DNA of 64,000 nt. Origin: Bacteroides sp. ET71 (GTDB lineage Bacteria > Bacteroidota > Bacteroidia > Bacteroidales > Bacteroidaceae). The stretch spans positions 1-64,000 of the forward strand of contig NZ_JAMBLS010000014.1 of NCBI RefSeq assembly GCF_023336905.1. The letters run 5' to 3'. The first letter of the stretch is position 1; every line of letters begins with the position of its first letter. The translations under genes were made by a program, and so were the position numbers. Positions 636 to 21,033 of this stretch are shown here, piece by piece. The notes beneath the pieces are model-generated. The model was not told the origin of the DNA, searched no databases, and saw only the letters and a list, made by a program, of their open reading frames with translations.

Positions 636-679
636 TTTGTTGTTCTTATTATTTTTGTTGTTCTTATTATTTTTGTTGT
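636..679. repeat. 18-bp tandem repeat at a gene 3' end
   Basis: The unit tttgttgttcttattatt occurs twice and begins a third time. The repeat spans the stop codon of the leftward 754-residue gene and the spacer before the next gene. Because 18 is a multiple of three, copy-number change would keep the frame; each unit carries in-frame stop codons on the minus strand, so the protein end would hardly change. Confidence 0.85.
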
Positions 680-2931
680 CCGCGAAGCCATTCCCAGAAT
701 TCCTGCTCGCAGCGTATAATTTTTTCTGTTTCTTTCCAATGTGAGTATGTCATTTCTGAAAAACAAGCACAAAACACATCTGCCCATGTAGCCAAAGGAA
801 ACATCATCCACCCTTCTTTCTCCCTCATCAGCACGGGCATGTCAAGAGTTTCGCTCCAGGGAGTGGAGTTGATTAACATATCTTCTAAATCTTGGTGTAC
901 ATATTCTTTCTTTTCTGCGTGAAAACATTCACAATGGGTATAGCCGCCTTCACAAACAATGCGACTGGAGCCATCATAATGAAAATCATTCCGTGATCGC
1001 ATATCGTCGAACGCAGCTTTATACTTCGTCCAAGAATGATTTATACTTATAGGATATCCTCCCTTTTTCATCTTGGCTTTTACACCGCTCCATGTCATAC
1101 AACGCATATAATAAGTAAGTGGAAGACATATCAGCTGGAGCGGAGTTTCCATGATTGTATCGCACATCCCGCCTTTATTAAGCTTTAACAGTTCGGTAAG
1201 AGGAGCAAGCTGTTCAGTATAAGCGGTGTTCTTCATACAAACCATAGACAGCGCAGCATATCGCGGATGCCAATCTACATGACGTAATCCAGGATTATCG
1301 GAACAGTCTAATTGGGTAAGACGATAATTCTTCCAGATATTCAATGTTCTCAATCTGTTTCCCCGGCAAACCAGACGTTCCAGTCTCGGATTATTCGAGA
1401 CATTCAAATATCGCAAACCTTGGTTTACGCAATATAGGTCAAGGAGTATCGGACATTGTGTGACATCCAATACTTTAAGTACACAGGTTTCACAGTTATA
1501 ATGCAAGGCAGTAAGCGTGTGTGTTTCATTACTCTTTAAATGAATATGCCACTTCCCCGCTTTCTCATAAGAATGCGTCAGGTGGATTTCTCCACCTTTT
1601 TCATTGTTCACCTTTTTTACATAGCCATCGCCCCAATCTATCGTAAAAGCACAATCATTGTAGCTGGTGAACGAAAAGGAACAAATGGCATCTTTCTTAT
1701 TTGCAACAACCGTCATGATTACCTCGTCCTTTTGCTTATAAAGCACTTTCTTTAAGCGACGGAACGAGCGACGGGCGTAGAGAATTTTTTCATTGCGTTC
1801 TTCATACTCGGAAGAGTTGATAAGTAGGCCATCTATGTAGTGGCGGTAACAATCCAATGCTTTCCACAAATCTTTTTTTGTGCCAAGACCCTGTTCATAC
1901 ATTCGCCCCATGTTGAAATGATCTTCCGCTTCTTCATAATATTGGAACGCTTTTTCCATATCGGGTGTGGTACCTTCGCCTCGCTCGTACATTTCACCGA
2001 GATTATATACTGCGTCTCCCGCCAAATAGCATTCCAAAGCCTTCTTGTATTCCTTGCGTTCATAATAGATGTCTCCGGCCCAGCAAGCAGACAAGCCTTT
2101 CGTTTTCATTCCGATATCCGTCAACATATTCAGTGCTTCTGAGTTGCCGTTCTTGGCCAGATCAGATAATAAACGAAGAGCATCTTTCCCAGAATACTTC
2201 TTTTCCTTCTCACATTCCGCCTCGTGGTCTAACAATAACTGGAACCAGTCTGCATGCAACAATTCATATTCGTCTATCTCTATGTCATAATAGGGTTTAT
2301 GTTCAGGAAAGCGCAATTTGGTTTCTATTATTCTGAAAATCGAATCAGCTGCATGCCAGCTTCCTTTCTCTGCCCAATCATAAAATATACCCACGATTTT
2401 ATCTTTTATTTCTTTAGGCACATGGCGCGAATGGAGCAGATTACTTGCTTGCAGCGTCAAAAAGCTATCATCCCCGGCATCCAATGCCTGCATGTACAAA
2501 GACAACGCCCGTTCCAAGTCGCTTTTCAGGGCGAAAGATGGCGATTGATTGATGATTCTCCCTACTTGGGAAGAATCGCAAGAAAACGGAATATACCACC
2601 CGGCAAGTTCCACTATTGCCTTTAAGTGTCCTTGCTTAGCAGCTTCCTCGTACCAATAAATCATTTGATTGGCATCAGGGTAATCTTCCGGGCACACCGC
2701 TTGTTGTTTTTCCTTGTTCATCCAGTAGGCAACGTCTTCCAACACAAAACGCGCTCCTGTATAAGTCATTTTTTTGTAAAACAGTTTTCCCATCTTATAT
2801 TGCGCATCCGCATTTCCCTTACGGGCGACGGGCTCCAATAATCTTATGGCCTCGTCGTATTGCCTATTGCTTACTAGTTCGTTCAATTGCTTTTGCAGGC
2901 ATTTGCTTACCACATTGTTTCTCTTTTCCAT
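667..2931 (-). CDS. Sel1/TPR, PKD-like and leucine-rich-repeat protein
   Basis: 754 residues, no signal peptide, so probably cytoplasmic. Residues about 15-380 hold Sel1/TPR-like helical repeats (ARKGNADAQYKMGKLFYK, AAKQGHLKAIVELAGWY, YNLGEMYERGEG, FNMGRMYEQGLGTKKD). Residues about 403-465 look like a PKD-type beta domain (IDWGDG, then HSYEKAGKWHIHL). Residues about 495-555 are leucine-rich repeats of Bacteroidota type (LRYLNVSNNPRLERLVC, LTQLDCSDNPGL). The last 150 residues are not recognised. Such repeats usually bind proteins. Placed fifth in the leftward operon headed by the Trp-repeat protein and rtcB; a scaffold or sensor role is inference. Confidence 0.8.
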   Translation of the reverse strand: MEKRNNVVSKCLQKQLNELVSNRQYDEAIRLLEPVARKGNADAQYKMGKLFYKKMTYTGARFVLEDVAYWMNKEKQQAVCPEDYPDANQMIYWYEEAAKQGHLKAIVELAGWYIPFSCDSSQVGRIINQSPSFALKSDLERALSLYMQALDAGDDSFLTLQASNLLHSRHVPKEIKDKIVGIFYDWAEKGSWHAADSIFRIIETKLRFPEHKPYYDIEIDEYELLHADWFQLLLDHEAECEKEKKYSGKDALRLLSDLAKNGNSEALNMLTDIGMKTKGLSACWAGDIYYERKEYKKALECYLAGDAVYNLGEMYERGEGTTPDMEKAFQYYEEAEDHFNMGRMYEQGLGTKKDLWKALDCYRHYIDGLLINSSEYEERNEKILYARRSFRRLKKVLYKQKDEVIMTVVANKKDAICSFSFTSYNDCAFTIDWGDGYVKKVNNEKGGEIHLTHSYEKAGKWHIHLKSNETHTLTALHYNCETCVLKVLDVTQCPILLDLYCVNQGLRYLNVSNNPRLERLVCRGNRLRTLNIWKNYRLTQLDCSDNPGLRHVDWHPRYAALSMVCMKNTAYTEQLAPLTELLKLNKGGMCDTIMETPLQLICLPLTYYMRCMTWSGVKAKMKKGGYPISINHSWTKYKAAFDDMRSRNDFHYDGSSRIVCEGGYTHCECFHAEKKEYVHQDLEDMLINSTPWSETLDMPVLMREKEGWMMFPLATWADVFCACFSEMTYSHWKETEKIIRCEQEFWEWLRGQQK

Positions 2932-3032
2932 ATTTTTCTGATTTTAGTTGCACATTGAGAAAAATAAGACCTCATCTTTCCATCTGTCATGATGCAAAGA
3001 TGAGGTCTGGTTGCGCCAAAGTGGTTCACAAG

Positions 3033-3899
3033 TTATTCTTTTTTCAATAATTGGTCGATGTTTTCTTTGATGTCGGCAAGGATGGCATGATAATTATCCC
3101 AATGGGCTTTATCTGATATTGTAGAGTTGGGATGGTGGGTTTTGTAAGCCAACTCCACTTCCTTGATTGGCAATTTGGTCACATCGTGTACAGATAGGGA
3201 GGCTAACGGTAACGGTTCGCCATCCATGGTAAAGTTTTCCTGAATATATCTATAATACGTATTCTCACCTGGTCCTGTGAAGAAGATTAGAATGTTTGGT
3301 TTAAGAATCTCGATTTCTTTAGGAATGACATGAAAATATTCATGTTCAATCTCATGTACTGAAGCATCGACTGGTCCACCGCCCGACTTTGTAATGGCTG
3401 ACATTTTGGAGATATTGTTCCAAATCATTGAGATGGTTTTACCTGGATAAGATTTTCCCATCTCTTCCATTAGACATGAAAGAATTCCATTTATGGAGAA
3501 TTTAAATAACCGGCTTCTTAGCTTGTCTTGGTCAAAGTATCCACCGTTCTTGTGCGTTACATAATTATCATCCAAGAATTTTTCATATGTATACATCAGG
3601 TCACCCACATCTGGAGTTTTCATGTCCTCATCCCATTTCTCCCACATATAAGGTTCCTGACCGAAAAACATTATTCTAATGTCTGCGTCAGTATACCAAG
3701 CTTCATTTTCAGGATTTTCTTCTACATCCAATTTATTTTCTTCACGCTTTTTTTCAATGTCAGCTATTCGTAATGCAGAAATCAAGAAGGGGCATTGCAG
3801 TTGGTCTCTCAATCCGTTGGTTTTCAATTGTTCTATTAAGCCGCCCCACTTACGTTTGTAGAGTTCGGTTAATTGTTCTGATAGTGTTTCCATACTCAA
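3033..3899 (-). CDS. Uracil-DNA-glycosylase-fold-like protein
   Basis: 288 residues. Three blocks match the order of motifs in the uracil-DNA glycosylase superfamily: FGQEPYMW at residues 79-86 (compare the water-activating GQDPY loop), the hydrophobic strand PNILIFFTGPG at 201-211, and THHPNSTIS at 254-262 (compare the HPSPLS loop). The catalytic Asp of UNG is Glu here and HPSP is HPNS, so it may be a divergent glycosylase, a family variant acting on another damaged base, or a non-catalytic nucleic-acid binder. Start could be Met1 or Met3. It lies between the 248-residue gene (69-base gap) and the Sel1/LRR gene (101-base gap). Family call is from motif reading only. Confidence 0.6.
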   Translation of the reverse strand: MSMETLSEQLTELYKRKWGGLIEQLKTNGLRDQLQCPFLISALRIADIEKKREENKLDVEENPENEAWYTDADIRIMFFGQEPYMWEKWDEDMKTPDVGDLMYTYEKFLDDNYVTHKNGGYFDQDKLRSRLFKFSINGILSCLMEEMGKSYPGKTISMIWNNISKMSAITKSGGGPVDASVHEIEHEYFHVIPKEIEILKPNILIFFTGPGENTYYRYIQENFTMDGEPLPLASLSVHDVTKLPIKEVELAYKTHHPNSTISDKAHWDNYHAILADIKENIDQLLKKE

Positions 3900-3968
3900 T
3901 AAGTTTTATAAAGTTCCTACAAATATACCTTTTAGTTGTTAGTTTACCAATATTACTCTGTTTTATTG

Positions 3969-4715
3969 TTACTCCCACCACTCCCTCATCTTGTAAAGAC
4001 GTATCCGGTAATACAGCCGCTCCATTTTGCGGACATATATTTTCTTGCCATAATAGAGCTTGTCGGGAAGACCGTCTTTTTCATCACTTGGTGTAGGCGC
4101 TTCTTCATAAGCGTCCACTAGGGCGGAAGAAACTATATCCCCTACATTTCTGATATTCATCCGATCAATTTGCTGTCGGGAGATGTGCAAATCATCATCC
4201 TTGATATATTTCAATAGACTGATACAAGTGTCTATCCAACGATTGAAGCCGAAGTTGCCGTTCTCGTCCGCTATCAGGGAATGTGAGAAATAAGCCCTCA
4301 TGCAACGTAGTTTGGCATACTCCAAGGCATACAGATATTGCCAGTCATATTGCGGGTCATGAGCAGCGTGTTCCACCAATTCGTCAATGAGAGGTTGCAG
4401 GTGTTCTTTCTTCCACTCGTTGAAACACTTGCGGTGATACCACAATCCACGTTCATAACTTGCGGTAAGCATTTTTTCGAAGCTTCTTTCTCCTTCTTCC
4501 GTAGGCTTATGCCCGTTGCTGTAGCTGTACGTGTTCCATTCAGCAAATAGTGTTACCCATTGTTCAAACTCCTCGTCGGAATGCAGTTCCTTCGGTATGC
4601 GCATTCCTCGTCTTAGCAAGTCCTTTTTCTCTTTTTCAGAAAGATGGGAAACGTCGGCCAGCGGATAGTCATAATTGCCAGGATCCAGTCCTGTCAGTTC
4701 TTTGGGGTTATCCAT
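3969..4715 (-). CDS. Unrecognised 248-residue protein of the rtcB operon
   Basis: No family recognised. The protein is rich in Trp, Tyr and charged residues (EFEQWVTLFAEWNTYSYSNG, EWKKEHLQPLIDELVEHA) and looks mostly helical and soluble; the C-terminus is basic and aromatic (RKMERLYYRIRLYKMREWWE). Its ATG follows the rtcB stop codon after a single base (TGA-T-ATG), so translation is coupled to rtcB. That tight coupling suggests it works with the ligase, for example as an accessory or substrate-handling subunit, but nothing in the sequence fixes a function. Confidence 0.75.
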   Translation of the reverse strand: MDNPKELTGLDPGNYDYPLADVSHLSEKEKKDLLRRGMRIPKELHSDEEFEQWVTLFAEWNTYSYSNGHKPTEEGERSFEKMLTASYERGLWYHRKCFNEWKKEHLQPLIDELVEHAAHDPQYDWQYLYALEYAKLRCMRAYFSHSLIADENGNFGFNRWIDTCISLLKYIKDDDLHISRQQIDRMNIRNVGDIVSSALVDAYEEAPTPSDEKDGLPDKLYYGKKIYVRKMERLYYRIRLYKMREWWE

Positions 4716-4716
4716 A

Positions 4717-5982
4717 TCATTCTGCAGCTTTAAAGTTATACACAGGCTTTATCACATTCACAATGCTCACCGTTTCGCGGATGTTTCCGATGATTTCATC
4801 CTTCGGCTTGTACACCATGGGCGACTCATCTTTGGTCTCTTCCGACAGGCTTTCGCTGTATATGCCCTGCATGGAAGCCCGGTAGTCATCCATGGATATA
4901 CTCTTGAAGGCCTGGCTCCGGCTCATGATGCGTCCGGCACCGTGTGGGGCGGAACAGTTCCACCCCGCATTACCTTTACCGATGCAAATAAGCGATCCGT
5001 CTCGCATGTTTAGCGGGATGATGCACTTTTCCCCCTCATAAGCGGCAATCGCCCCCTTACGGATGATGTTGTCGTCGCCGATGTAGTTATGCACGCTCTC
5101 AAATGCCAGTTCATTTTGTTTCAATTCGACATAGCCTTGGGAGATGAAGTAATCCATGATAAGATTGGCAATCAGACTGCGATTCATCTTGGCCCAATGC
5201 TGGCAGAGGCGCATGTCATGCAGGTAATCTTCCCGATAAGTGCCTTCCAGATAGGACAAGTCGGGCGGTATCGCGGGTTTGCGCATCTTGAACGAATTAT
5301 GCAGTTGGCGAATGGCATCCTGCAACTCGTCCTTACGCCCCGCCGCTTTGTATTCGGCAATCATGCGGTTTTGTTCTTCCATCAGTTCCGCCCATCCCGA
5401 CTGGCATTTCACGGCCAGCTTCTGATAGATCTGCGCCACCTGTTTCCCAAAGTTGCGGCTTCCGGTGTGAACGACAAGATAGGTCATGCCGCATTCATCC
5501 TTATCCAGTTCGATGAAATGGTTCCCTCCGCCCAGTGAACCGATGGAGGCGTTCAAGCGTTTAGTTTCCTTCAGCTCGCGATAGCAGCGTAACTGTTTGA
5601 TGATGTCCTTGGCTTCTCGATATACACCCATATAATTTTGCGGGAGCGGCGCATATCGGTTGTCCCGGTAATTGCGTCCTGACGGGATGTGGTGAAGGAT
5701 AAACTCGTTGAGAGCATGATAATCTATCTCATTCACGCAGACGAACGGCTGCACAAGAATGCCGCAACCTATGTCAACACCTACGATATTGGGGATAACC
5801 TTGTCTCCCAAGTCACCTGTAAAGCCAATGACACAGCCTGCCCCTGCATGAACATCAGGCATGATGCGGATTTTACACTTGCTGAACACATCGATGGACA
5901 GCAACTCCTTGATTTGTTCGCTGGCACTGTCCTCGATATTGTCCGTGTAGATTTTTACGTTATAGCCTTCTACGGTTTTCAT
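4717..5982 (-). CDS. rtcB: RNA-splicing ligase RtcB
   Basis: 421 residues, full length for the family. RtcB joins RNA ends bearing a 2',3'-cyclic phosphate or 3'-phosphate to 5'-OH ends using GTP and Mn2+. Visible signature residues: MPDVHAGAGCVIG at 41-53, VGVDIGCG at 67-74 with the metal-binding Cys73, GGGNHFIEL at 151-159, VVHTGSRNFG at 170-179, and HGAGR at 347-351 with the His that takes the GMP in known RtcB enzymes. All appear intact, so the enzyme should be active. It is second in a leftward operon, 6 bases after the Trp-repeat gene, and diverges from a WYL regulator. No archease or RtcR (CARF/sigma-54 activator) gene is nearby. Confidence 0.95.
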   Translation of the reverse strand: MKTVEGYNVKIYTDNIEDSASEQIKELLSIDVFSKCKIRIMPDVHAGAGCVIGFTGDLGDKVIPNIVGVDIGCGILVQPFVCVNEIDYHALNEFILHHIPSGRNYRDNRYAPLPQNYMGVYREAKDIIKQLRCYRELKETKRLNASIGSLGGGNHFIELDKDECGMTYLVVHTGSRNFGKQVAQIYQKLAVKCQSGWAELMEEQNRMIAEYKAAGRKDELQDAIRQLHNSFKMRKPAIPPDLSYLEGTYREDYLHDMRLCQHWAKMNRSLIANLIMDYFISQGYVELKQNELAFESVHNYIGDDNIIRKGAIAAYEGEKCIIPLNMRDGSLICIGKGNAGWNCSAPHGAGRIMSRSQAFKSISMDDYRASMQGIYSESLSEETKDESPMVYKPKDEIIGNIRETVSIVNVIKPVYNFKAAE

Positions 5983-5988
5983 TTTGTT

Positions 5989-6534
5989 TTATGAAAGGAT
6001 ACGTATCTTCAGTTGTTTCTTCTCGTCTTCAACCAATTTGTCCCACAGGCGTGAACGTTGCAAAGCGGATGCTGGAATATAATCCTGGTATTTCTCCAGA
6101 AACTCCATGCTATACAATTCGTCCCGGTGATAGCAGTCTATGATTTCGTTCCAATCCCAATACTCGGCAAACTGTTCCAAGAGTGCGGAAGTAAGTTCGA
6201 TGTCGGAGTTTCTTGATAATTCACGCCAATTCCAATATTCCTTGTATTTATCCAGATTCTCCGCCGTAAACAGATGCTCATTGTCCGAACTGGAAAGTTC
6301 CTCCCAGTCCACTTTGTTCTTAAACTTCTCAATCATGGATGCAGTCCAAAGGATGTTTCTGTTGCCGGAAATCTCTTTCCACGCCACTTTGTCCTTGTAC
6401 TTTTCCAGCAGTGGCTCATTCCACGCAAACTCGCTTGACAGTTCTTTCCATGCGGCTTCTTCCAATACCTTAGCCATAAAATCGTTGTTCCAGTTCTTTG
6501 TTGCCATACTACTTGTCATTAAAAGGTTTAACAT
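5989..6534 (-). CDS. Tryptophan-repeat protein heading the rtcB operon
   Basis: 181 residues from the first Met; Met6 (6519) or Met10 (6507) may be the true start because the likely promoter lies only about 10 bases upstream of Met1. The body is five imperfect repeats of about 25 residues with the pattern [L/I]-[I/L]-E-K-[Y/F]-K-[D/N]-K-V-x-W-x-E-[I/L]-S (KYKDKVAWKEISGN, KFKNKVDWEELSSS, KYKEYWNWRELSRN, QFAEYWDWNEI). Similar Trp repeats occur in many unannotated bacterial proteins. No signal peptide or catalytic motif. Probably a helical binding repeat; its function with RtcB is unknown. Confidence 0.8.
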   Translation of the reverse strand: MLNLLMTSSMATKNWNNDFMAKVLEEAAWKELSSEFAWNEPLLEKYKDKVAWKEISGNRNILWTASMIEKFKNKVDWEELSSSDNEHLFTAENLDKYKEYWNWRELSRNSDIELTSALLEQFAEYWDWNEIIDCYHRDELYSMEFLEKYQDYIPASALQRSRLWDKLVEDEKKQLKIRILS

Positions 6535-6648
6535 CTATTCTGCTGCAAAGTAAAGAGTCTTAAATGCCAAAACGCGGCATAACATAAAAGAAATGCAGGA
6601 AAAGAGAAAAAATTAAGATTGGGCTACGATTTGGCACAGGAGAATACG

Positions 6649-6656
6649 TAACTTTG
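6649..6656 (+). promoter_or_regulatory. Promoter -7 box for the WYL operon
   Basis: TAACTTTG fits the Bacteroidota -7 consensus TAnnTTTG and lies 26 bases before the WYL start codon. It sits in the 149-base divergent spacer, so a regulator bound here could control both directions. A well-spaced -33 TTTG is not obvious. Confidence 0.6.
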
Positions 6657-6682
6657 TGGCATAACCATAAAATGATAGTAGC

Positions 6683-7648
6683 ATGGCAGCAAATCTTTTG
6701 GGACGATATGTCTGGCTGATGGACATTCTGCGAAGACATAAGCGTTTGACGTTTGAGGAAATCAACGAACTTTGGCAGGAAAGCGGACTGAGTTATGGCG
6801 AGGAATTGCCTTTGAAGACTTTTCATAACCACAAGAAGGCTATCAAAGACATATTCGATGTATATATAGAATGTGACCGGAAGGATGGATACCGTTATTA
6901 TATTGATGAGCCGGAACGCATCGAAGGAAACAATCTGCGCAGTTGGCTCATCAGTTCATACGCCACATTGAATCAGATAAAGGCAGACAATAAGTTGGAA
7001 GAGCGAATTATTTTTGAAGAAATCCCTTCAGGACAGACTTGGCTGACCTGCATTGCGGATGCCATGCGGCGTAATCGAGTATTAAGCATTACGCACCAAG
7101 GTTTTGGCAAGCCGGAACCCAGCACGTTTGAGATTGAACCATACTGCCTGAAAGTTGCGAAGCGTCGTTGGTACGTGGTGGCACGTAGCCCGTACTATTC
7201 GGAGCGAAACAAAGAGAAAGGCATTAAGCCTGCTGATGTCTACCGAGTGTATGCTCTCGACCGTATTTCAGACATTCAGGACACGGGCAAGACATTCAAG
7301 ATGAAAAAGGAATTTGATATTAATCACTATTTTGAAGGATGCTGTGGAGTAATCACTTCAGACGCCCCCATCCAACGTATCGTGCTTTTGGCTTATGGTG
7401 GTTTTGCCGACTATCTACGTACTTTACCTCTACACGAATCGCAACGGGAGATAGAGGGTGATGATGAGTCCACACTCTTTGAATACCATCTGAAGCCGAC
7501 TTTTGACTTCTATCAGTTGGTTCTTGCCCAAGGCGACCAAGTAGAAGTGCTGGAGCCGGAATCCGTGCGCAACGAAATGCGCAATTTTGCAAAAAACATG
7601 TTGGACTATTACACTTGGAAAGAGGAGGATAAACCATGCAAGGAATAA
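6683..7648 (+). CDS. WYL-domain transcriptional regulator
   Basis: 321 residues. The N-terminus (about 1-85) is a winged-helix-like DNA-binding segment (LTFEEINELWQESGLSYG, then FHNHKKAIKDIFDVYIEC). The middle carries the WYL core (EPYCLKVAKRRWYVVARS, then VYALDRISDIQDTG) typical of ligand-sensing WYL proteins. Family members commonly regulate defence loci and are proposed to sense nucleic acids or nucleotides. It is transcribed away from the rtcB operon and overlaps the next gene by 13 bases, so it probably controls both the operon it heads and the divergent rtcB operon. The ligand is unknown. Confidence 0.9.
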   Translation: MAANLLGRYVWLMDILRRHKRLTFEEINELWQESGLSYGEELPLKTFHNHKKAIKDIFDVYIECDRKDGYRYYIDEPERIEGNNLRSWLISSYATLNQIKADNKLEERIIFEEIPSGQTWLTCIADAMRRNRVLSITHQGFGKPEPSTFEIEPYCLKVAKRRWYVVARSPYYSERNKEKGIKPADVYRVYALDRISDIQDTGKTFKMKKEFDINHYFEGCCGVITSDAPIQRIVLLAYGGFADYLRTLPLHESQREIEGDDESTLFEYHLKPTFDFYQLVLAQGDQVEVLEPESVRNEMRNFAKNMLDYYTWKEEDKPCKE

Positions 7649-8184
7649 ATTTCATAGCCATCGATTTTGAGACAGCTACGGGCAAACGTGCTTCCATCTG
7701 TGAGGCGGGCATCTGCGTGGTGCGTGACGGAGAGATCGCAGAAACCCGTTCGTGGCTTGTCCGTCCGCAAGGGAACAGCTACAGTTATTGGAACATGCAG
7801 ATACACGGTATCCGACCGAATGATACCGTCAATTCACCGGAATTCCCGGAAGTGTGGGCGGAAATCTGCGGATACCTTAAAGACATACCAGTGCTTGTGG
7901 CCCACAATGCCGCTTTTGACATAGGTTGCATCCGTCATTCGTTAGAACTCTATGGTATGGAGAAGCCTGACATCACTTATTATTGTTCCCTCCGTGCCGC
8001 ACGCAGACTTTACAACTTCGGTTGCAACAGTCTGGACTATCTCTGTGACCAGTTCAAGATACCTTATGGGCAACACCATCGGGCTGGAGATGATGCGGAG
8101 ATGTGTGCGAGGTTGTTTCTGACGGAGTTGGAGGATGCAGGGTGCGAATTGGAAGAAATGGGATATTGTGGTGGGAAGCTGTAA
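7636..8184 (+). CDS. DEDDh 3'-5' exonuclease (DnaQ-like)
   Basis: 182 residues, a stand-alone exonuclease domain. Catalytic motifs of the DnaQ/RNase T class are complete: FIAIDFETATG (Asp10, Glu12), VLVAHNAAFDIGCIRH (ExoII Asp) and HHRAGDDAEMCARLF (ExoIII with the H-x4-D of the DEDDh type). It would remove 3' nucleotides from DNA or RNA. The start overlaps the WYL gene by 13 bases, which indicates translational coupling. In the context of RtcB on the other side, trimming of damaged RNA 3' ends is an attractive but unproven role; DNA degradation in defence is the alternative. Confidence 0.9.
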   Translation: MQGINFIAIDFETATGKRASICEAGICVVRDGEIAETRSWLVRPQGNSYSYWNMQIHGIRPNDTVNSPEFPEVWAEICGYLKDIPVLVAHNAAFDIGCIRHSLELYGMEKPDITYYCSLRAARRLYNFGCNSLDYLCDQFKIPYGQHHRAGDDAEMCARLFLTELEDAGCELEEMGYCGGKL

Positions 8185-8297
8185 ATGTAGCACATTTTCG
8201 GTAAACAATGTAAGTGCTGTAATCCCGATAAAATAGGAACTATGTATGTCATGTTTTTTATGCTAAATACACGATTTGACCGATTAAACATATTTAT

Positions 8298-10733
8298 ATG
8301 AAAACGGAATGGACTTTGAAAGAAATATCAGAATGGGTAAAAGATAATTCGAAAGTGAGAATACCTGCTATACAACGAGGGTTGGTATGGAAACCAAATC
8401 AGGTAGAATTACTATGGGACTCCATTCTGCGCCAATTCCCTATTGGCGCTTTCATGCTTTCATACAAAGATGAAATGTACGACCTGATAGACGGTCAACA
8501 GCGTTGGAACGCCATAGCATCAGGATATAGCACATCGAACGATGGTTGTATCTTATGGATTGACTTAAAACCTGAAAGCGTTTGGAAGGAAGGCAATACT
8601 ACTAGGAAATATTTCATACGTGTCACCACGAAGGCACATCCCTGGGGCTATGAGGCTGACGATAAATGTAATCCGCTTAAGACGGCACAAAAGAGAGCTG
8701 CACTTGAGGAGTTTGGAGTAAACACAGACGACGAATACAAAGGCATAATCAGCCTGACTGAAACTTATCCTATAGAATCAGGGGTGCCCATCCCTCTGTG
8801 TTGGATGGTAGCTGCAGGAGAGGAATATAGTGAGGACAAATATGGTTTTGCGGAATACATTATGGATAAAATAGGAGAGAATAAAGTATCCCGAATGTTT
8901 AAACTGAAAAATGTGGACGAAATTAATGCTTGTTTGATAGCCAAATACCATGATGTTTTCAAAAGATTGTCGTCCTTTAAAGTCCCGACCATTCGTATAG
9001 ACCAAGAAACTATCAACAAAGAAAGTGAGAATAAAAGTGGAAATGGAACACTCTCGGACATAGAGATACTTTTCAACCGTATCGGCACCGGTGGTACCCG
9101 TATCACCGAACGCGAGTTGATGTATTCAGCGGTAAAAGCTTATTGGCCGGAACTGACGAAAGAGAACGATAGGTTGGCAGCACTCTACATGCCTCCACAT
9201 ACGCTGATATCATTGGCTTTCCAACTTGTGCTTTCCGATACAAACAAAGGACTTGAACGAACACCGGATGTGACGAAAATCAGAAAGTTGGCTGGTAATG
9301 ATGGCGTACGTAATGCGATAAACAATCTGTACCTTACTGATGGAAATAAATCTGTAATGAGCCGCATACTTTCTTTAGTAGATCAATGGTTGACAGATTG
9401 TGATAAGATACCTAAAGTATTAAGAACCACAATTGCCCGTGAGTCGTCCGTAGTTTACTTGTTGCTGATGGCATTTGCCAAGTGGAAAGAAGAGGGACAG
9501 ATAGATCCGACGTTAAAGGAAGAGGCGCTATTTCGGGCAACGGCTTACTATCTTCATTGGATGGTAGGCGATAAGTTTGGTGTGGCAAATAGTATATACC
9601 AGGCTGTAGCAAACAATCCGCTAAACGAATGGGGAACCATTATAAAGCAAGTGTTGTTGGTGTCATGTGTGAAAGGAACCATCACCCCTTTGTTATCGCC
9701 AGAAGCATTCAAGGGCTTGTTTACAATTGAGGGAGATAAAAACTGGCGACCTAATGAAAATGGACGTAGCAGTATGCCGTGGTGGCTGCTGTGGGATACC
9801 GTATCGTATAACAGAGAAATGTTACTCTACGCGCAACGGGAATATATGTGTAAGAGATTCCCTAATTACGACCCGGCACGGCAAGATTTATGGGAAGACA
9901 AAAACAGACCGTGGGATTTCGACCATATCATACCCCAAGATTGGATACATAAGCAATGGAGTAAAAGACAGGCATACACCGATTATTGCGAAGCTTGGAA
10001 AGATAACAATGGAAACATGGCTGCCATTCCATTTTGGGTGAATAGAGCAAAAAGTAATGAGGCAAACTGGGATGAGTATGAGCATAATTCTGCAAATCTG
10101 CTGGCAGATGAGGAAATAACCAGATTCGGCGAACTGTTTAATGGAATGTTAAATGGTAAAGTAGAGCAAGCAAAGCGCTTCGCAGAAAAGACCTTCACTC
10201 GTATGTGCAAGATTTACAATGAAGTATATACTCTGCTTAAACCGGTAGATTTTAGGGTAGGAGAAATTACTTTCACCGAAGAAGGAGGAATAAAGGATCG
10301 TAAGGAGAGAATGACGGATATCTGCGACATATTGGTAAATGAGGGTTTTACAGCCGGTATATACTTCCTTTACAATAATATTATGGAGTATCCGCAAGAA
10401 AATATTGATGACTGGACTTGGGAGTGGATGTCGTGTGGTTGCATCACCGAAAACAAATATTATGCGGCTTTTACGATGGTACTAAATCAACAAGATGGAA
10501 GCATTGTTAACCAAATAGAGATAGGACTGAGACGGTTGCCCAAAACAGCCGAACGCATCGGAGAAGTAACAAATATGCAGTTGCTACAGTTGAAAGGATA
10601 CGAAACGTACGATCTGTATAAGGATAATTCGTGGTGGCATATCTGTAAAGTAATCAGTATAGATACTGATAATAATGTAATAATCAATGAACTAAGAGAA
10701 TTAGCAAAATTTGCATCTACTAAGTTGCAATAA
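8298..10733 (+). CDS. DUF262/DUF1524 (GmrSD-like) HNH nuclease protein
   Basis: 811 residues. N-terminal DUF262 domain: RIPAIQRGLVWKPNQVELLW at 21-40 and the DGQQR motif at 65-69, which in GmrS-type proteins belongs to a nucleotide-binding, ParB-like fold. Around residue 540 lies an HNH-type nuclease core (WDFDHIIPQDWIHKQW, then NMAAIPFWVNRAKSNEANW), matching DUF1524. The last about 150 residues are not recognised and may read substrate. This two-domain order is that of type IV restriction enzymes that cut modified phage DNA. It follows the exonuclease by 113 bases on the same strand; the spacer has no clear terminator. Confidence 0.88.
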   Translation: MKTEWTLKEISEWVKDNSKVRIPAIQRGLVWKPNQVELLWDSILRQFPIGAFMLSYKDEMYDLIDGQQRWNAIASGYSTSNDGCILWIDLKPESVWKEGNTTRKYFIRVTTKAHPWGYEADDKCNPLKTAQKRAALEEFGVNTDDEYKGIISLTETYPIESGVPIPLCWMVAAGEEYSEDKYGFAEYIMDKIGENKVSRMFKLKNVDEINACLIAKYHDVFKRLSSFKVPTIRIDQETINKESENKSGNGTLSDIEILFNRIGTGGTRITERELMYSAVKAYWPELTKENDRLAALYMPPHTLISLAFQLVLSDTNKGLERTPDVTKIRKLAGNDGVRNAINNLYLTDGNKSVMSRILSLVDQWLTDCDKIPKVLRTTIARESSVVYLLLMAFAKWKEEGQIDPTLKEEALFRATAYYLHWMVGDKFGVANSIYQAVANNPLNEWGTIIKQVLLVSCVKGTITPLLSPEAFKGLFTIEGDKNWRPNENGRSSMPWWLLWDTVSYNREMLLYAQREYMCKRFPNYDPARQDLWEDKNRPWDFDHIIPQDWIHKQWSKRQAYTDYCEAWKDNNGNMAAIPFWVNRAKSNEANWDEYEHNSANLLADEEITRFGELFNGMLNGKVEQAKRFAEKTFTRMCKIYNEVYTLLKPVDFRVGEITFTEEGGIKDRKERMTDICDILVNEGFTAGIYFLYNNIMEYPQENIDDWTWEWMSCGCITENKYYAAFTMVLNQQDGSIVNQIEIGLRRLPKTAERIGEVTNMQLLQLKGYETYDLYKDNSWWHICKVISIDTDNNVIINELRELAKFASTKLQ

Positions 10734-10749
10734 GTATTCAATTTGAATA

Positions 10750-11346
10750 ATGATGTCCATCCTTCACCTCTCCGATACCCACAGTCAGCATCGGCGGCTC
10801 ATAGAGCTGCCCGGTGCTGACATCCTTGTGCATTCAGGTGATTTCACCATGAACGGAAGCGAACAAGAAGCCATTGATTTCATGAATTGGTTTTGCGATC
10901 TCCCTTACCCGCACAAGATTTTCATCTGTGGCAATCACGATGCCTGCCTATATGGAGCCAAGATAGACGGGTTGGATAAGAATGTGTATTACCTATGCAA
11001 TTCCGGCGTAACAATTGATGGCGTTAATTTTTATGGCGTTCCCATGTTTATGGAAGATTGTATCTCTGAACGTCAGAGCCGTAACTATGCCGCCATACCT
11101 GCCGACACAGATGTATTAATTACCCATTGTCCGCCCTATGGCATTCTTGATTTTGACGATGAGATAAACTATGGTTCGACAGAACTTCTGGCGAGGGTGG
11201 AAGAAATAAAGCCTCGTTTGCATCTGTTTGGCCATATCCATAAACAGCATGGTATAAAGAAAGATGTTTTAACTATTTTCTCAAATGGCGCGATCATGAA
11301 TGGAGATTACACGAACTTCAACCTTCCGAACCTGATTGAAATCTAA
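10750..11346 (+). CDS. Calcineurin-like metallophosphoesterase
   Basis: 198 residues with all five metal-binding blocks in order: LHLSDTHSQHR, DILVHSGDFT, ICGNHDACL, VLITHCPPYG and LHLFGHIHKQHG. Such enzymes hydrolyse phosphomono- or diesters, including cyclic phosphates and nucleotides. Start is ATG at 10750 or the adjacent ATG at 10753. It begins 16 bases after the DUF262/HNH gene and is followed by a terminator, so it closes the rightward operon. Next to RtcB a phosphodiesterase acting on RNA ends or on a cyclic nucleotide signal is plausible; the substrate cannot be read from sequence. Confidence 0.9.
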   Translation: MMSILHLSDTHSQHRRLIELPGADILVHSGDFTMNGSEQEAIDFMNWFCDLPYPHKIFICGNHDACLYGAKIDGLDKNVYYLCNSGVTIDGVNFYGVPMFMEDCISERQSRNYAAIPADTDVLITHCPPYGILDFDDEINYGSTELLARVEEIKPRLHLFGHIHKQHGIKKDVLTIFSNGAIMNGDYTNFNLPNLIEI

Positions 11347-11390
11347 TGAAAGTATTGATTATTCAGAAAGGGGTATTTAAGGAAATGGCG

Positions 11391-11425
11391 GCGAAGTTCA
11401 GTCGCTTTTCCGAACTTTGCTTTTT
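11391..11425 (+). terminator. Rho-independent terminator of the WYL operon
   Basis: Stem gcgaagttc (11391-11399) with gaactttgc (11412-11420), one G-T wobble, 12-base loop, followed by five T. It lies 45 bases after the metallophosphoesterase stop. Confidence 0.75.
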
Positions 11426-11509
11426 AATTTGCTAACAAGTTGTTGGTAAAGACTGGAGCATGTTAGAGGCAGAAAACCGTCCATATTGGATGGCATCGCA
11501 CATGACACT

Positions 11510-12052
11510 TCACGCGACACAATATACAATCAACCCTAATGCCATCGTATAAACGAACAAAAATATCACCAAAACTTTCATCCAGAAGTCAGAGAACCAA
11601 ACGCCTTCATTTCGCCTAAGGATTTTGCGCATATTGGATTCATGTTCCGTTAACATTTTCGTCTGTTCGGAACGATGATTTTCCAATAGGGTTTTCCATG
11701 TCTCAATGGCTTGGTTTAAGAGTTGTTGAAGCTGGGCAAGATGTTCAGACTTTATAGTTGCCTTGAACTGTGTGTTTTGCTCTGCTTTTACAATCGCATT
11801 GCAAATACCGTTAATGATATTGCCGAAACTATCAATAGCAGTTTTCAATATCATTGCAGCATCACGCTCTGCTTTAATAGCGTCTTGAAGGTCTTGATGG
11901 ATTTTCAACAATGCCTCTTTTGCTTCACGGATTTCTGTGAGCCGCTTGTCTGCATCCTGCTTTTCAGCCTCTAATTCATGATTGCTTTCAACCTTTTTCA
12001 ACATATCATCAACGTCTATTGATGGAGTAATTTTTGATTTGCCAATTCCCAT
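11510..12052 (-). CDS. Coiled-coil, C-terminally membrane-anchored protein of the mobilization module
   Basis: 180 residues. Residues about 15-150 are strongly charged and helical with coiled-coil character (ELEAEKQDADKRLTEIREAK, QLLNQAIETWKTLLENH). A single hydrophobic segment (VLVIFLFVYTMALGLIVYCV) ends the protein, giving a tail-anchored topology with the body in the cytoplasm. It follows the relaxase gene by 24 bases on the same strand, as small membrane-coupled proteins often do in Bacteroides mobilizable elements. It might help link the relaxosome to a coupling protein at the membrane; this is inference. Confidence 0.75.
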   Translation of the reverse strand: MGIGKSKITPSIDVDDMLKKVESNHELEAEKQDADKRLTEIREAKEALLKIHQDLQDAIKAERDAAMILKTAIDSFGNIINGICNAIVKAEQNTQFKATIKSEHLAQLQQLLNQAIETWKTLLENHRSEQTKMLTEHESNMRKILRRNEGVWFSDFWMKVLVIFLFVYTMALGLIVYCVA

Positions 12053-12076
12053 GATTCTTGCCTTTTGATTGTTAAT

Positions 12077-13288: not shown

Positions 13289-13303
13289 AATAGGTGAGGG
13301 AAT

Positions 13304-13702
13304 TTATTCAGTAAGGTAATTTTCTATCTGGCTCCAACGATTGATAAGCTGAGTAGCGGCCCTCATCCATTGTTCCACAAATCGGGTATCGCTGAAATAC
13401 ATAGCCCGTTTGTCCGCTTGGATGGATTTCACGGCTGCCGCGATGCGAATAAGGTCACCCCTTGCATCCGTCAGACTACACAGGGCTTCCACTTCATGGT
13501 CAGACAACCGTTGCCGTGGATGTTGCCCCAAGGCGGTACGCCGCACATACTCGCTCATGGATAAGCCGCAGGTTTTGGCAAGTTCTGCCGCTTGAGCATA
13601 TTCCTGTTCTGTCACCCTGGCTTCAAGCCGCAGGGTGCGTCTTGTGACTTTTTTCTCGTTTTCTTCATCAATTTCTTTGTCGGTATTCTTTTTCTTCTTC
13701 AT
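13304..13702 (-). CDS. MobC-like relaxosome accessory protein
   Basis: 132 residues. After a very basic/acidic N-terminus comes an RHH-like segment (RTLRLEARVTEQEYAQAAEL, then CGLSMSEYVRRTALGQ), the usual form of small relaxosome proteins that bind oriT and help the relaxase. The C-terminal half (LIRIAAAVKSIQADKRA, WMRAATQLINRWSQIENYL) is helical. It sits directly upstream of the relaxase gene, as mobC does in related elements. Confidence 0.85.
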   Translation of the reverse strand: MKKKKNTDKEIDEENEKKVTRRTLRLEARVTEQEYAQAAELAKTCGLSMSEYVRRTALGQHPRQRLSDHEVEALCSLTDARGDLIRIAAAVKSIQADKRAMYFSDTRFVEQWMRAATQLINRWSQIENYLTE

Positions 13703-13875
13703 ACTCTGTTATGCTATGGGTAAAACATCAATTCAAAAAGGGTCAGCACGGTGGGAGCTTGCGACTGCCGGAATATGCCTATGTAGTACGAATAAGCGAA
13801 GCGAATTTGTGCGACATAGGAACTTCTTGCAATACTGCATACAACAGCTTCGGACACACCAACTTTCTGGTACAG
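13703..13875. other. Candidate oriT/regulatory spacer of the mobilization genes
   Basis: The 173-base spacer upstream of the mobC-like gene holds no gene. It contains inverted arms CCTATGT (13778-13784) and ACATAGG (13814-13820), with a smaller symmetric core around AAGCGAAGCG between them. Upstream spacers of mob genes are the usual site of oriT in such elements. No nick site is assigned. Confidence 0.3.
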
Positions 13876-14406: not shown

Positions 14407-14453
14407 CTGTCTGTTTGAAGATATTTTATAAATGGTGCAGCCAAAAGAGAAAG

Positions 14454-14801: not shown

Positions 14802-14936
14802 GTTTTCAATTATTTTGTCCCATGTCCCAGGTGTTTCTTATAACTTTCTCTTTTATCTGTCTTTGGTTTTCATCCTTTTTTAGGGGGAAAAGAGGGACAA
14901 AGGGACAGATATTCTTTTTTTCCCTTAGTTTGAGAT

Positions 14937-16322
14937 TTAAAATGGTAGCTCCTGTTCACTTGGTAATGAAGTACAGACTTCTTCGTTTGGTGCGTCCACT
15001 CTCACCCACGGATGCTTTGCTCGTCCGGTCTTGTCACAATAGGCAGGATGCAACCCTTTGACTTTTTCCTGATCACTCCGTTTCCAATTAGGAATCATGG
15101 ACATCAGGCGATTGATATATTGTGATGTGTATTTGGCAGGATTGCGTCTGACCAAGTCATTAGGCATTTCCTCTATAATCTGCCGGGCACAAACCATGTT
15201 GAGTGTGGTCATTGTTGAGTTTGGTTCTGAGTATGCTCCCTTTTGATAAGCCTGTCGGATCGGAATGGTCCAACTTGCATATTGGACGGGAATCTCACGC
15301 TCCAAATACATTTCCAGATCTTCTATGATGGGGTCAACAAGGATGTTGGAATGTTGTACCTGCACTTCATTGGCTTGAATTTCCATATCGGGTGTCAAAT
15401 AAAGTTTCATTCCTTGCCGATAATAGGCGTATGCTTCTGCCCAAAGCTGAGGAACAACACGTTGTAGCGCATCCAGCCATTCTGAAACATGGCCATTACC
15501 TTTTACCGGAATTATCCACCAGCGGCGGTTTCCGTTATCCCCTTGCAGGAAGTTTGTCTCATTGGTAGTAGCCGCAAAGACATTGTGCCGCATAAACTCC
15601 ACAACCTTATGTCCGTATGCCGGGCGCATATAGTCGCTGCAACGGCTCAGGAAAGCTTTGGCTGCCTCTGCATCATTCGCCCGTTTCAAACCATTCAGTT
15701 CACTGATTTCAATAATCCAGCCATTGGTTATGGTTTCTACCTTTTCCTTGTCACCACTGGCAAAAGAGAATGAATCGTTGAACCACTTTCCACTGATGGT
15801 TTTGAAAAAGGTGCTTTTCCCGATACCTTGCGGACCAGGCAAAGTCAGTACGTTGTCAAACTTGCAACCAGGGGTAAAAACCCGGGCAACAGCCGCCACG
15901 AACCATAGTTTTGTCTGTTCCCTGATAAGCGGCATGTCCTCCGCTCCCAAATAATCAATGAGGGTTGTGGCTATACGAGGCTGTCCGTCCCATGTCTCTT
16001 GGGTGATGAAATCCTGTACAGGGTTAAAACTCCGTTCTGAAGAGGTCGTTTTTAGCATTTCAAATACCTTATTCTGTGTCAGATGTAATCTGTATGTCCT
16101 TTCCAAATAGTCTTGTATCTTTCCTGCCGATTCTTCATCAATCTTGTTGCCATTGACATTGCGAAACAAAGGGCTGAAACATACATCGTCCTGACAAAAG
16201 GTATCATATCTTATCTGACTAAGATTCTCATCCAAAGTGAAAATAAGTCGGAGGTTGCTGATGGAACGGGCTGGATTTCCATAGCTGTCTGTTACCAAAT
16301 CTTTTTTCCAATTATCGTCCAT
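14937..16322 (-). CDS. VapE-family primase/helicase-type ATPase
   Basis: 461 residues from the ATG at 16322, which sits one base after the stop of the upstream gene with GGAACA just before it; a longer frame from 16349 would overlap that gene. Features of virulence-associated E proteins (PF05272): the P-loop GPQGIGKSTF around residue 163, the acidic strand GWIIEISELNGL, sensor-like VFAATTNETNFLQGDNGNRR with the arginine-rich RRWWIIPV. These SF3-like ATPases act with phage and plasmid replication modules. Its presence suggests the element can replicate after excision. The primase domain is not evident, so this is the helicase half. Confidence 0.88.
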   Translation of the reverse strand: MDDNWKKDLVTDSYGNPARSISNLRLIFTLDENLSQIRYDTFCQDDVCFSPLFRNVNGNKIDEESAGKIQDYLERTYRLHLTQNKVFEMLKTTSSERSFNPVQDFITQETWDGQPRIATTLIDYLGAEDMPLIREQTKLWFVAAVARVFTPGCKFDNVLTLPGPQGIGKSTFFKTISGKWFNDSFSFASGDKEKVETITNGWIIEISELNGLKRANDAEAAKAFLSRCSDYMRPAYGHKVVEFMRHNVFAATTNETNFLQGDNGNRRWWIIPVKGNGHVSEWLDALQRVVPQLWAEAYAYYRQGMKLYLTPDMEIQANEVQVQHSNILVDPIIEDLEMYLEREIPVQYASWTIPIRQAYQKGAYSEPNSTMTTLNMVCARQIIEEMPNDLVRRNPAKYTSQYINRLMSMIPNWKRSDQEKVKGLHPAYCDKTGRAKHPWVRVDAPNEEVCTSLPSEQELPF

Positions 16323-16323
16323 A

Positions 16324-16644
16324 TTATTGTTCCTTAATATGGATACCACCTGATTCCTTTGCTAAAGACAATGCAAGGTCTGCGTCCACAATGATTTTTC
16401 GTCCTATCTGCGTAATAGCCTTATCTATGATACCGCTCTTCTTAATGCGGTTTGCCGTGGGTACGCTGCATCCGAACACACGGGCAATACCCTCTATACC
16501 ATAATAGTTGCCTTTGGAGGCCATTGGAGATGTGGGCTTCTCGGCGGATTCTACACTTTTTGTAATGAGAAAGCAAAGCTCCTCGCCAGTCATCATGGCG
16601 ATAGGTTTTTGAAGTAATTGGTTAAAATTGAATCTTTCTTCCAT
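16324..16644 (-). CDS. DUF3853 family, excisionase-like DNA-binding protein
   Basis: 106 residues. The segment YYGIEGIARVFGCSVPTANR followed by IKKSGIIDKAITQIGRKIIV is the hallmark of DUF3853, a MerR/excisionase-type winged-helix family common in Bacteroides mobilizable elements. It ends one base before the VapE start, so the two are co-expressed. Probable role: excision directionality or control of the replication gene. Confidence 0.85.
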   Translation of the reverse strand: MEERFNFNQLLQKPIAMMTGEELCFLITKSVESAEKPTSPMASKGNYYGIEGIARVFGCSVPTANRIKKSGIIDKAITQIGRKIIVDADLALSLAKESGGIHIKEQ

Positions 16645-18068: not shown

Positions 18069-18080
18069 TGTCTTATGGTA

Positions 18081-19583
18081 TTAAGGTTGTCTGAACAGTT
18101 TGAGCAATTCTTCTGTGGACATGCTTGCCAACTTTGCCAACAGAGCATCCCTTTCAGAAGTATTACCCAGGTTTAGCAGCTTTGAATTGTTCTGCATCTG
18201 AATGTCGAGAGGATAATGCTCGATGTAGATTTGAGTGATAGCATGATCAGAGGATGCGTGCCCCATGCTTTCAGAAATATAATCCATGTCTACTCCGGCA
18301 TTATGCAGGTTGGTGGCAAATGAGTGTCGGCACCAAGTCCCGGACGGACAGATGGACTTATCCCAATTTAGAGCTTCATGGCATATCCTAATAATACGAT
18401 CTTTTACGTTTGAGTTTTCCTGCATGGTATATTTGCGGCGCAACTCTTCCGTTTCTGCCCCTTTTAATATATGAGGAAAAACAAGCCCACCCCGAGTCGG
18501 AGGTGCCGCCACTTCATCTAACACATATTGTAAAGGGGGGATAATGGGAACGATAACTTCAGAACCGTCAGCGCTTCTTCGGGAAGTTTTCTTTCGGTTG
18601 AAACGAAAAGCCTTGCCATCTGTCTGATAATAATAACTGTCATAAGTCAATCGCCCTGCATCTGCCATGTTGAAGCCATTGCACAGGTACTGGGCAAGAA
18701 ACAATCCCAATGAGTAGTGGGCACGTTTGGTATATTCTTCCGACCAATGTTCGGGATATTTCTTTGAGACAAAAAGGTTATATAGCTCCGTCATCTGGCA
18801 GACATTCAGAAAGCTCTGTTTGCGCTTTGCACTCTTGGGTATGCTCACAAGCCCTTTCTCCTTCTTGTTAGAAAAAGGATAAGGAACATCTTTGAGATAG
18901 CCTTCATGTATACACCTGTTCCATACAGCACGGCAACAACGGAGATAAATCCCGGCGGTAGTATCGCTGATTTTCCCGACTATCGCCCCATTCTCGTCTT
19001 TTACTCCATCATGCATTCCGTCTTTCCACTTCTGAATTTCTGCAGCACTGATGCAGAATCCTCTAATCATATTGCTTCCGAGAATTTTTCTGAATGATTT
19101 GAGTGCGCATTCGTAGCTCTCTGCTGTGGTAAAACGTGCGCCACCATCGTCTGTCCGTAATTCATGGATGATTTGTTCCCATACACCAACAAAGGTTTGT
19201 ACCTTGGTCGTATCTTCTTTGAATGGCATCACTCCCTCACCCATGATACATTGGCGTACCATTTCAAATGTCAGAATGCCACCTTTATTCAGGTTCATCA
19301 GAATTTCTTTGTATTTGGGGGCAAAGCTATCTTTCCACTCTTTTTGAAGTTTGTAATTCTCGCTCTTGCATTTAGTCGCATTACAGATGTCTGAGAACTT
19401 TCTTTCAGTGAAAGAACTTCCGACAATAAGATAAAAGAATTTGCGGTCTATCGTGAAACGGAGAGATAATGGAAACTCGCACGCGTTTTTCCTGCGAGTA
19501 CGTGAATCCAACACGACAGAAACAGAACAGTTCCGTTCCTTGAAAAGCGACAGGGACTTTGTCAGTTTTTCCATTGCATTCAT
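18081..19583 (-). CDS. Tyrosine recombinase (integrase) of element 1
   Basis: 500 residues with an N-terminal arm-binding region, a SAM-like core-binding domain (about 130-240) and a C-terminal catalytic domain. Visible catalytic residues: R419-H420 in TWCRHSFATNLHNAGV, H442 in SMGHASSDHA, and nucleophile Y453 in ITQIYIEHY. The box I arginine is not present at the expected place: the motif reads YLCNGFNMADAGRL with Asn302. Loss of that arginine is known in IntDOT of CTnDOT, so the enzyme may still work. It points away from the tRNA-like end at 20188-20230, which is probably its attachment site. Confidence 0.92.
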   Translation of the reverse strand: MNAMEKLTKSLSLFKERNCSVSVVLDSRTRRKNACEFPLSLRFTIDRKFFYLIVGSSFTERKFSDICNATKCKSENYKLQKEWKDSFAPKYKEILMNLNKGGILTFEMVRQCIMGEGVMPFKEDTTKVQTFVGVWEQIIHELRTDDGGARFTTAESYECALKSFRKILGSNMIRGFCISAAEIQKWKDGMHDGVKDENGAIVGKISDTTAGIYLRCCRAVWNRCIHEGYLKDVPYPFSNKKEKGLVSIPKSAKRKQSFLNVCQMTELYNLFVSKKYPEHWSEEYTKRAHYSLGLFLAQYLCNGFNMADAGRLTYDSYYYQTDGKAFRFNRKKTSRRSADGSEVIVPIIPPLQYVLDEVAAPPTRGGLVFPHILKGAETEELRRKYTMQENSNVKDRIIRICHEALNWDKSICPSGTWCRHSFATNLHNAGVDMDYISESMGHASSDHAITQIYIEHYPLDIQMQNNSKLLNLGNTSERDALLAKLASMSTEELLKLFRQP

Positions 19584-20175: not shown

Positions 20176-20187
20176 CTGATTCTTAAC

Positions 20188-20230
20188 GTGGACCAGCCAG
20201 GGCTTGAACCTGGGACCTCCAGATTATGAG
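20188..20230. repeat. Attachment-site copy (43-bp tRNA 3'-end repeat), left
   Basis: Identical over 43 bp to 29982-30024, beginning gtggaccagccagggcttga and ending with the anticodon region attatgag. The 5' half of a tRNA is missing here (next bases gctatcag), so this is not a tRNA gene but a duplicated 3' end: the left boundary of element 2 and probably also the right boundary of element 1. Confidence 0.92.
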
Positions 20231-20584: not shown

Positions 20585-20585
20585 T

Positions 20586-21005: not shown

Positions 21006-21033
21006 ATGAATCAATCTTTTTCTAATGTTATTT

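Follow-up and report, generated by a model that had tools for sequence, protein, structure and literature searches.

The first 64,000 nucleotides of a contig of Bacteroides sp. ET71 (NZ_JAMBLS010000014.1; contig C14 of genome G000 in our set) were analyzed and are called the window in the following. Near its left end the window contains a locus of ten genes, which is the cargo of an integrative mobilizable element of Bacteroidaceae in a tRNA-Met gene. The core of the locus consists of the genes for a W-repeat protein, RtcB and an uncharacterised protein of 248 residues (p248), which lie back to back with the genes for a WYL regulator and a DEDDh exonuclease, plus a terminal phosphoesterase gene. 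The outer modules, i.e., the Sel1/"UDG" genes on the left and the DUF262 nuclease gene on the right, are swappable. The pairing of WYL and RtcB is recurrent: it was found in two deep clades of RtcB and beyond the bacterial family. The favoured reading, to which we give an even chance, is that of a modular defence-and-repair island in which the WYL protein controls RNA repair and type IV-like restriction jointly, similar to the control of rtcBA by RtcR in other bacteria. As the WYL regulator and RtcB are often neighbours in relatives, healing and defence may both be triggered by a single sensor.

The pairing was analyzed in 201 genomes of the family, and RtcB was matched in 34 of them. Forty RtcB places were mapped, which do not include two fragments, tiny or weak, on G000:C9 and G083:C287. 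At least seven of the forty hold an incomplete or disrupted gene (L083, L087, L154, L158, the first RtcB of L159, L179 and L181). A WYL gene of the window family was present within 10 kb of RtcB at 19 of the 40 places and within 1 kb at 14, in 11 cases divergent and in three cases in tandem. The WYL density (266 matches in 127 of the 201 genomes, with a mean genome size estimated at 2.95 Mb) would lead to about 0.4 of the 40 places within 10 kb and 0.06 within 1 kb by chance. An RtcB tree of 36 rows, for which sequences shorter than 340 aa were dropped and the named loci L091, L097 and L098 were added, revealed three main clades, A, B and C, and three rows outside of them. The tree program warned that long branches meet, and thus the order of the clades is unsure. 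In clade A, to which the window belongs, WYL lies within 2 kb in 8 of the 14 rows and farther away in one. The respective numbers for clade B are 6 of 10 rows and one, and in clade C (9 rows) WYL is within 2 kb in one row and at 4.6 kb in another. The label "WYL within 2 kb" required 8 changes on the tree, versus 11.7 in shuffles (11 of 500 shuffles were as low). When 295 genomes of the class were searched with a clade B RtcB, 62 matched; 30 RtcB loci were checked within 1.5 kb, and three of them (L204, L218, L219) had a divergent WYL gene, which was confirmed by Pfam.

Alternatively, a recombination hotspot may simply have accumulated unrelated genes, with a recurrence that reflects only the spread of related mobile elements. 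This would be in line with the one integrase and one att site common to the close copies and with the variation of many neighbours. The adjacency of WYL and RtcB in two deep clades and outside of the family argues against it, as do L014, L015 and L016, which have p248 proteins of 44-47% identity and still carry WYL within 10 kb. This explanation is regarded as very improbable.

Next, the carrier element was compared with its relatives. The first-pass annotation had proposed that the locus is cargo of a mobilizable element, and the relaxase, NikA-like, VapE-like and tyrosine integrase genes to the right of the cargo (Pfam) and the attachment repeat in tRNA-Met support this. The repeat is a 31-base piece of tRNA-Met, which occurs again inside the tRNA-Met gene (Table 1). 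Two further copies are on contigs C48 and C51 of the same genome, and on C51 such an element has its left end, together with a repeat copy of its own. The integrase is 98% identical to that of Marseilla massiliensis and 92% identical to that of B. finegoldii, and the elements of both species are flanked by the same tRNA-Met repeats, at distances of about 24.5 kb (joined coordinates 13574 to about 38045) and 23.2 kb (9265 to about 32512), respectively. When pieces of at least 150 bases were considered, window DNA was matched in B. finegoldii only at 3969-8185 and 10750-20233 (87-90% identity) and in Marseilla only at 3969-6589, 6653-8122 and 10759-20233 (83-93% identity). The genes for p248, RtcB, the W-repeat protein, WYL, the exonuclease, the phosphoesterase and mobility are common to the three elements, i.e., both halves of the core travel together on these related elements. 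The DUF262 slot and the region to the left of p248 have been exchanged. In B. finegoldii the W-repeat, RtcB and p248 genes are divergent to a set that consists of the WYL, exonuclease and phosphoesterase genes and two DUF262 genes. A DUF262 pair occupies the right-module slot in L089, L091 and L092. In B. finegoldii and Marseilla, where the DNA homology starts at 3969, no Sel1 protein was found at the locus. A fixed ten-gene system, as which the locus had been described initially, was rejected, because otherwise homologous elements exchange the Sel1/UDG and DUF262 modules.

A second integrase-bearing segment is present in the window between the two tRNA-Met repeats (20231-29993, integrase at 28587-29852), and thus two elements appear to reside in tandem at one tRNA gene. 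This neighbouring segment also contains a gene for a WG-repeat protein (21939-22793, 73 bits).

The recurrence of the core was also followed with p248, which was found in 7 of the 201 family genomes. Five of the seven have WYL nearby, i.e., on the same stretch and not farther than about 10 kb. Of the other two, G058 has a contig edge only 152 bases beyond rtcB, and G035 has p248 on a 9-kb contig. A profile scan of named genomes yielded 19 p248 loci, at least six of which are from genomes already among the seven, and all but one, labelled Erysipelotrichaceae, are by their labels of the Bacteroidales type. Near p248 in these 19 loci, many stretches of which end at contig ends, DUF262 was seen in 10, DUF6557 in 9, Sel1/LRR in 8, WYL and the exonuclease in 7 each, RtcB, the W-repeat protein, the phosphoesterase and a SpoU methylase in 6 each, UDG2 in 4 and udg in 1. 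None of these families was seen beside p248 in L105 and L106. Relatives of the W-repeat protein with at least 40% identity occur at 10 places; WYL is on the same stretch at 7 of them, and the contigs of the remaining 3 are 3.5-5.6 kb long.

The 11 closest WYL loci, defined by at least 77% identity, are those of the window, C50, G103, G140, G182, G196, G011, G118, G069 and the named loci L089 and L091, which are about 93-94% identical to the G140 copy. The exonuclease gene was found in 10 of them, and the eleventh (G196) ends at a contig edge. In G118 and G069 the exonuclease is followed by a phosphoesterase/ATPase pair, which reads as SbcD/SbcC (Pfam for the G069 pair only). The 13-base overlap of the WYL and exonuclease genes is also present in L018, L050, L052, L053 and L054, and in L055 and L056 the two genes do not overlap. 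L018 is the second RtcB-WYL-exonuclease locus of the same genome (G000:C50); it is 81-87% identical and is flanked by genes for a PDDEXK_4 nuclease, an RNase H-like protein and UPF0047. Because the core recurs in other species, the grouping of the locus is above chance.

These results also bear on the possibility that WYL and RtcB together serve RNA repair in housekeeping or under stress, that the restriction genes are later cargo without functional tie, and that the locus is not directed against phages. Small loci with RtcB and WYL, which occur in clade B and beyond the family, would be in line with it. In the window clade, however, the exonuclease gene directly follows WYL, and most close copies have the 13-base overlap. 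Genes for DUF262 and phosphoesterase proteins also recur there. We judge this explanation improbable.

The anatomy of the locus is summarized in Table 1. Ten open frames form two divergent sets, and the tight spacing that had been noted was verified: a single base separates the rtcB stop from the ATG of the p248 gene (4715-4719), the WYL gene ends at 7648 and the exonuclease gene starts at 7636, i.e., they overlap by 13 bases, and 16 bases lie between the end of the DUF262 gene (10733) and the start of the phosphoesterase gene (10750). The divergent spacer is present, but from the listed starts it comprises 148 bases (6535-6682) instead of the 149 given before. The homology of several relatives of the W-repeat protein begins only around MATKNW; therefore, its gene may start at about 6507, which would enlarge the spacer to about 175 bases.

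Table 1. Features of the locus and its carrier element (window positions).
Feature	Position	Strand	Evidence or remark
Sel1-repeat protein, 754 aa; outer swappable left module	667..2931	-	Pfam Sel1 52.6 bits
288-aa protein, "UDG-like" in the first-pass annotation	3033..3899	-	no Pfam match
p248, uncharacterised core protein	3969..4715	-	alignment, 19 sequences
RtcB, predicted RNA ligase, phage-like	4717..5982	-	Pfam 192.5 bits; PHROG 1075
W-repeat protein, Trp every 23-26 residues	5989..6534	-	start possibly at about 6507
Left half-site TGCCAAA, proposed operator	6565..6571	+	
Right half-site TTTGGCA, proposed operator	6630..6636	+	12 bases upstream of TAACTTTG box 6649-6656
WYL-WCX regulator, 321 aa	6683..7648	+	Pfam WYL 48.7, WCX 46.5 bits
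DEDDh 3'-5' exonuclease	7636..8184	+	Pfam RNase_T 89.5 bits
DUF262 (GmrSD/BrxU-like) protein; swappable right module	8298..10733	+	Pfam GmrSD_N 74.3 bits
Metallophosphoesterase	10750..11346	+	PADLOC PDC-S10, 255.9 bits
Relaxase, carrier element	12077-13288	-	Pfam
NikA-like mobilization gene, carrier element	13304-13702	-	Pfam
VapE-like protein, carrier element	14937..16349	-	Pfam 254.7 bits
Tyrosine integrase, carrier element	18081..19583	-	Pfam
Attachment repeat, part of tRNA-Met	20200..20230	+	second copy 29994-30024 within tRNA-Met gene

The spacer contains a mirror-image arrangement. Its order is CAAAGTAA, 11 bases, TGCCAAA, 58 bases, TTTGGCA, 12 bases and TAACTTTG, so that a -7-like box lies outside each half-site. 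The Bacteroides -7 consensus is TAnnTTTG, and the left box is one position off this consensus. TGCCAAA/TTTGGCA is proposed as the putative WYL operator. Across relatives, the half-sites are separated by 58-59 bases (65-66 from start to start), and the site is kept in part of the close relatives. Both half-sites are present in the window, B. finegoldii, G182, G196 and L059, and L059 retains the spacing though its WYL protein is only 51-54% identical. A single half-site is present in C50, G103 and An322. In 19 close upstream regions 13 half-sites were found, versus 0.6 in shuffles, and 8 of the 19 regions hold one or two.

Profile searches largely agreed with the first annotation of the proteins, and Pfam confirmed RtcB, WYL with WCX, RNase_T (DEDDh), GmrSD_N, Metallophos and Sel1. 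Three labels could not be upheld: "PKD" had no Pfam match, "LRR" remained below the cut-off (16.6 bits), and "UDG-like" had neither a Pfam match nor more than a weak similarity to the recurrent neighbour family UDG2 in a profile-profile comparison (16.9% probability). The 288-aa protein had no convincing solved relative (best E 0.28) and presumably resembles a UDG only by the motif GQEPY / HHPNS.

RtcB retains the motifs DIGC, GGGNHF, HTGSR, SVHN and SAPHGAGR, i.e., the His, Cys and Asp motifs of the RNA ligase family, the residues of which we take to be catalytic and metal- or guanylate-binding. DIGC, GGGNHF, HTGSR and HGAGR align with a solved RtcB chain, and SVHN only in the family alignment. 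The protein is predicted to ligate RNA with a 3'-phosphate or cyclic phosphate to 5'-OH RNA. It matched the phage family PHROG 1075 with 409 bits, and its best match in phage records is 62% identical.

The alignment of p248 has 35 invariant positions. The protein had no Pfam match above the cut-off and no PADLOC or PHROG match, NCBIfam yielded only weak matches, each in 1 of the 19 members, and thus no convincing family assignment by profile was obtained. Relatives were found neither in viral contigs (two pattern-based scans) nor in plasmids. The only match in phage records was MT837679, an unverified faecal contig of 7.9 kb, and the idea that p248 is a viral or plasmid gene was rejected.

On the other side of the spacer, the regulator has a WYL and a WCX domain. 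The exonuclease matched the PADLOC defence-candidate model PDC-S48 with 94.1 bits, only over the first 169 of 411 model positions. The DUF262 protein carries the motifs LLWDS, DGQQR and DHIIP, the second of which lies in a DUF262 domain of the GmrSD/BrxU type IV kind. It matched the DUF262 protein PDB 7p9k (E 3.3e-5), which we take to be BrxU. For a DUF1524 HNH domain, GmrSD_C reached 16.1 bits (cut-off 23), and DHIIP is present in the sequence. By analogy to GmrSD/BrxU type IV enzymes, it is predicted to cut modified DNA. The phosphoesterase matched the PADLOC defence candidate PDC-S10 over residues 2-197 (model positions 10-215 of 223).

In the favoured reading, the WYL protein, the gene of which is divergent to the W-repeat/RtcB/p248 set and the first of the exonuclease/DUF262/phosphoesterase set, would be the sensor and the regulator of both directions. 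We infer that it acts on both sides, and its ligand would be RNA with cyclic ends. The substrates would be host RNA on one side and phage DNA on the other: RtcB would reseal host RNAs cut by RNases during the conflict, the DUF262 nuclease, the exonuclease and the phosphoesterase would attack the incoming DNA, and the W-repeat protein and p248 would help RtcB in some way. A bolder version, which is possible yet rather doubtful, states that WYL senses damaged RNA, that one mirror-image operator drives the RNA-healing set as well as an interchangeable restriction set, that p248 and the W-repeat protein act in RNA repair as new partners, and that WYL-RtcB is the Bacteroidia counterpart of RtcR-RtcBA.

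If true, the cell would cut the invader and repair its own RNAs at once, host-RNA healing would be coupled to DNA restriction on a mobile element, and some Bacteroidia would use a WYL sensor, not RtcR, for the control of RNA repair. The reading offers a testable ligand (damaged RNA ends) and a testable operator, and p248 and the W-repeat protein are two uncharacterised conserved proteins that can be assayed with RtcB. A review contains the general statement that CARF and WYL regulators might sense cyclic-phosphate RNAs and that some regulate RNA repair pathways (PMC9503650), so that the idea of a WYL-RNA-repair connection is not new in principle. A description of the RtcB-WYL gene pair was not found in the accessible parts of the literature on RtcB with WYL.

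Several observations weigh against joint control. For an N-terminal helix-turn-helix, the WYL protein yielded no Pfam match. No WYL was seen in the stretch at 21 of the 40 RtcB places (several of these stretches end at a contig edge), two of the tandem pairs within 1 kb (L083, L087) involve RtcB remnants, and the RtcB loci are partly related, so that binomial P values overstate the evidence for pairing. At the class level 27 of the 30 loci were without WYL within 1.5 kb. Two of these 27 (L202, L203) are clade B-like. Two of the three best matches belong to the 27. Half-sites were absent from 11 of the 19 close regions, Marseilla included; 32 distant regions had 5 half-sites, versus 0.9 expected, at varying places, and the conservation could also reflect that of a promoter. 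RtcB was present in 8 of the 11 closest WYL loci (one broken) and absent from G140 and G182; in G011 the contig ends about 600 bases upstream, so that RtcB cannot be judged there. The G140 locus (Bacteroides sp. An322) had no match for rtcB, and a stop divides its W-repeat frame; in Marseilla, rtcB is interrupted toward its 3' end by an in-frame stop. The restriction side thus does without RtcB in these cases.

The last findings would be expected if WYL controlled only its own operon, a type IV-like restriction system, and RtcB with its partners were a separately controlled anti-ribotoxin cassette in the same defence hotspot. The swapping of modules between elements fits as well, and so does the genomic distribution: with WYL in 127 and RtcB in 34 of the 201 genomes, the WYL side occurs mostly without a matched RtcB at the genome level. 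Clade B, however, has divergent RtcB-WYL pairs without DUF262 or phosphoesterase genes of these families in the stretch; most other core families were likewise not seen near the pair, and in L175 the exonuclease gene is several genes away. In addition, the half-sites mirror toward both gene sets. Control of its own operon only is regarded as unlikely.

Further genes were observed near the core in relatives. A SpoU-type RNA methyltransferase gene lies beside p248 in L014 (12146-12757; Pfam for this copy) and L015 (11760-12335), and the six named loci with SpoU are L095, L100, L101, L102, L103 and L107; the recurrence of this gene hints at RNA modification alongside repair. A set of DprA-like, AAA/KaiC-like ATPase, unknown, PLD-like and DUF6557 genes adjoins the core in L012 (3285-7748; Pfam was run on this copy) and L050 (9139-13525). 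A gene for a tubulin/FtsZ-like GTPase is near the island in G182 (L050:14910-15893, 46.7 bits). The locus labelled Erysipelotrichaceae, L099 (CALUZL010000159.1), has genes that are 96-100% identical to the unverified phage record MT837679 and is otherwise like the Bacteroidales loci; its contig is possibly misbinned or mobile.

Four known systems were compared with the locus, based on the accessible parts of the respective papers. In the rtcBA/RtcR system the regulator is divergent to rtcBA (PMC12606134), and the CARF domain of RtcR binds 5' tRNA halves with cyclic phosphate (PMC7790460). The window locus is similar in that RtcB lies beside a divergent regulator with a predicted ligand-binding domain. 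It differs from this sigma-54-dependent system in that the regulator is of the WYL-WCX and not the RtcR-type CARF kind (Pfam), that no RtcA cyclase was found by Pfam among the ten scanned proteins, and that RtcB is linked to a DUF262 module and located on a mobile element.

The RtcB2-PrfH ribosome repair module (PMC9223846) shares RtcB-based repair of host RNA, but no PrfH is among the ten window proteins. PrfH was found above the cut-off beside all three clade C RtcBs tested (L163, L166, L168), which are of the same family and fall in a separate clade. The RtcB-PrfH pair of L168 adjoins a relaxase and accessory genes that are 31% and 36% identical to those of the window element, and similar carriers may exchange different RtcB cassettes.

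The CARF/WYL-regulated systems predicted by Makarova et al. 2014 (PMC4012209) also have WYL as a predicted sensor of nucleotide signals in defence loci; in the part available, RtcB is tied to RtcR/CARF and not to WYL. Lastly, the BREX island with BrxR (WYL) and BrxU (DUF262-DUF1524) is likewise a defence island in which a DUF262 nuclease accompanies a WYL regulator (PMC8565348). In contrast to it, the ten genes of the window include no BREX genes, and RtcB, the exonuclease and the phosphoesterase are present instead.

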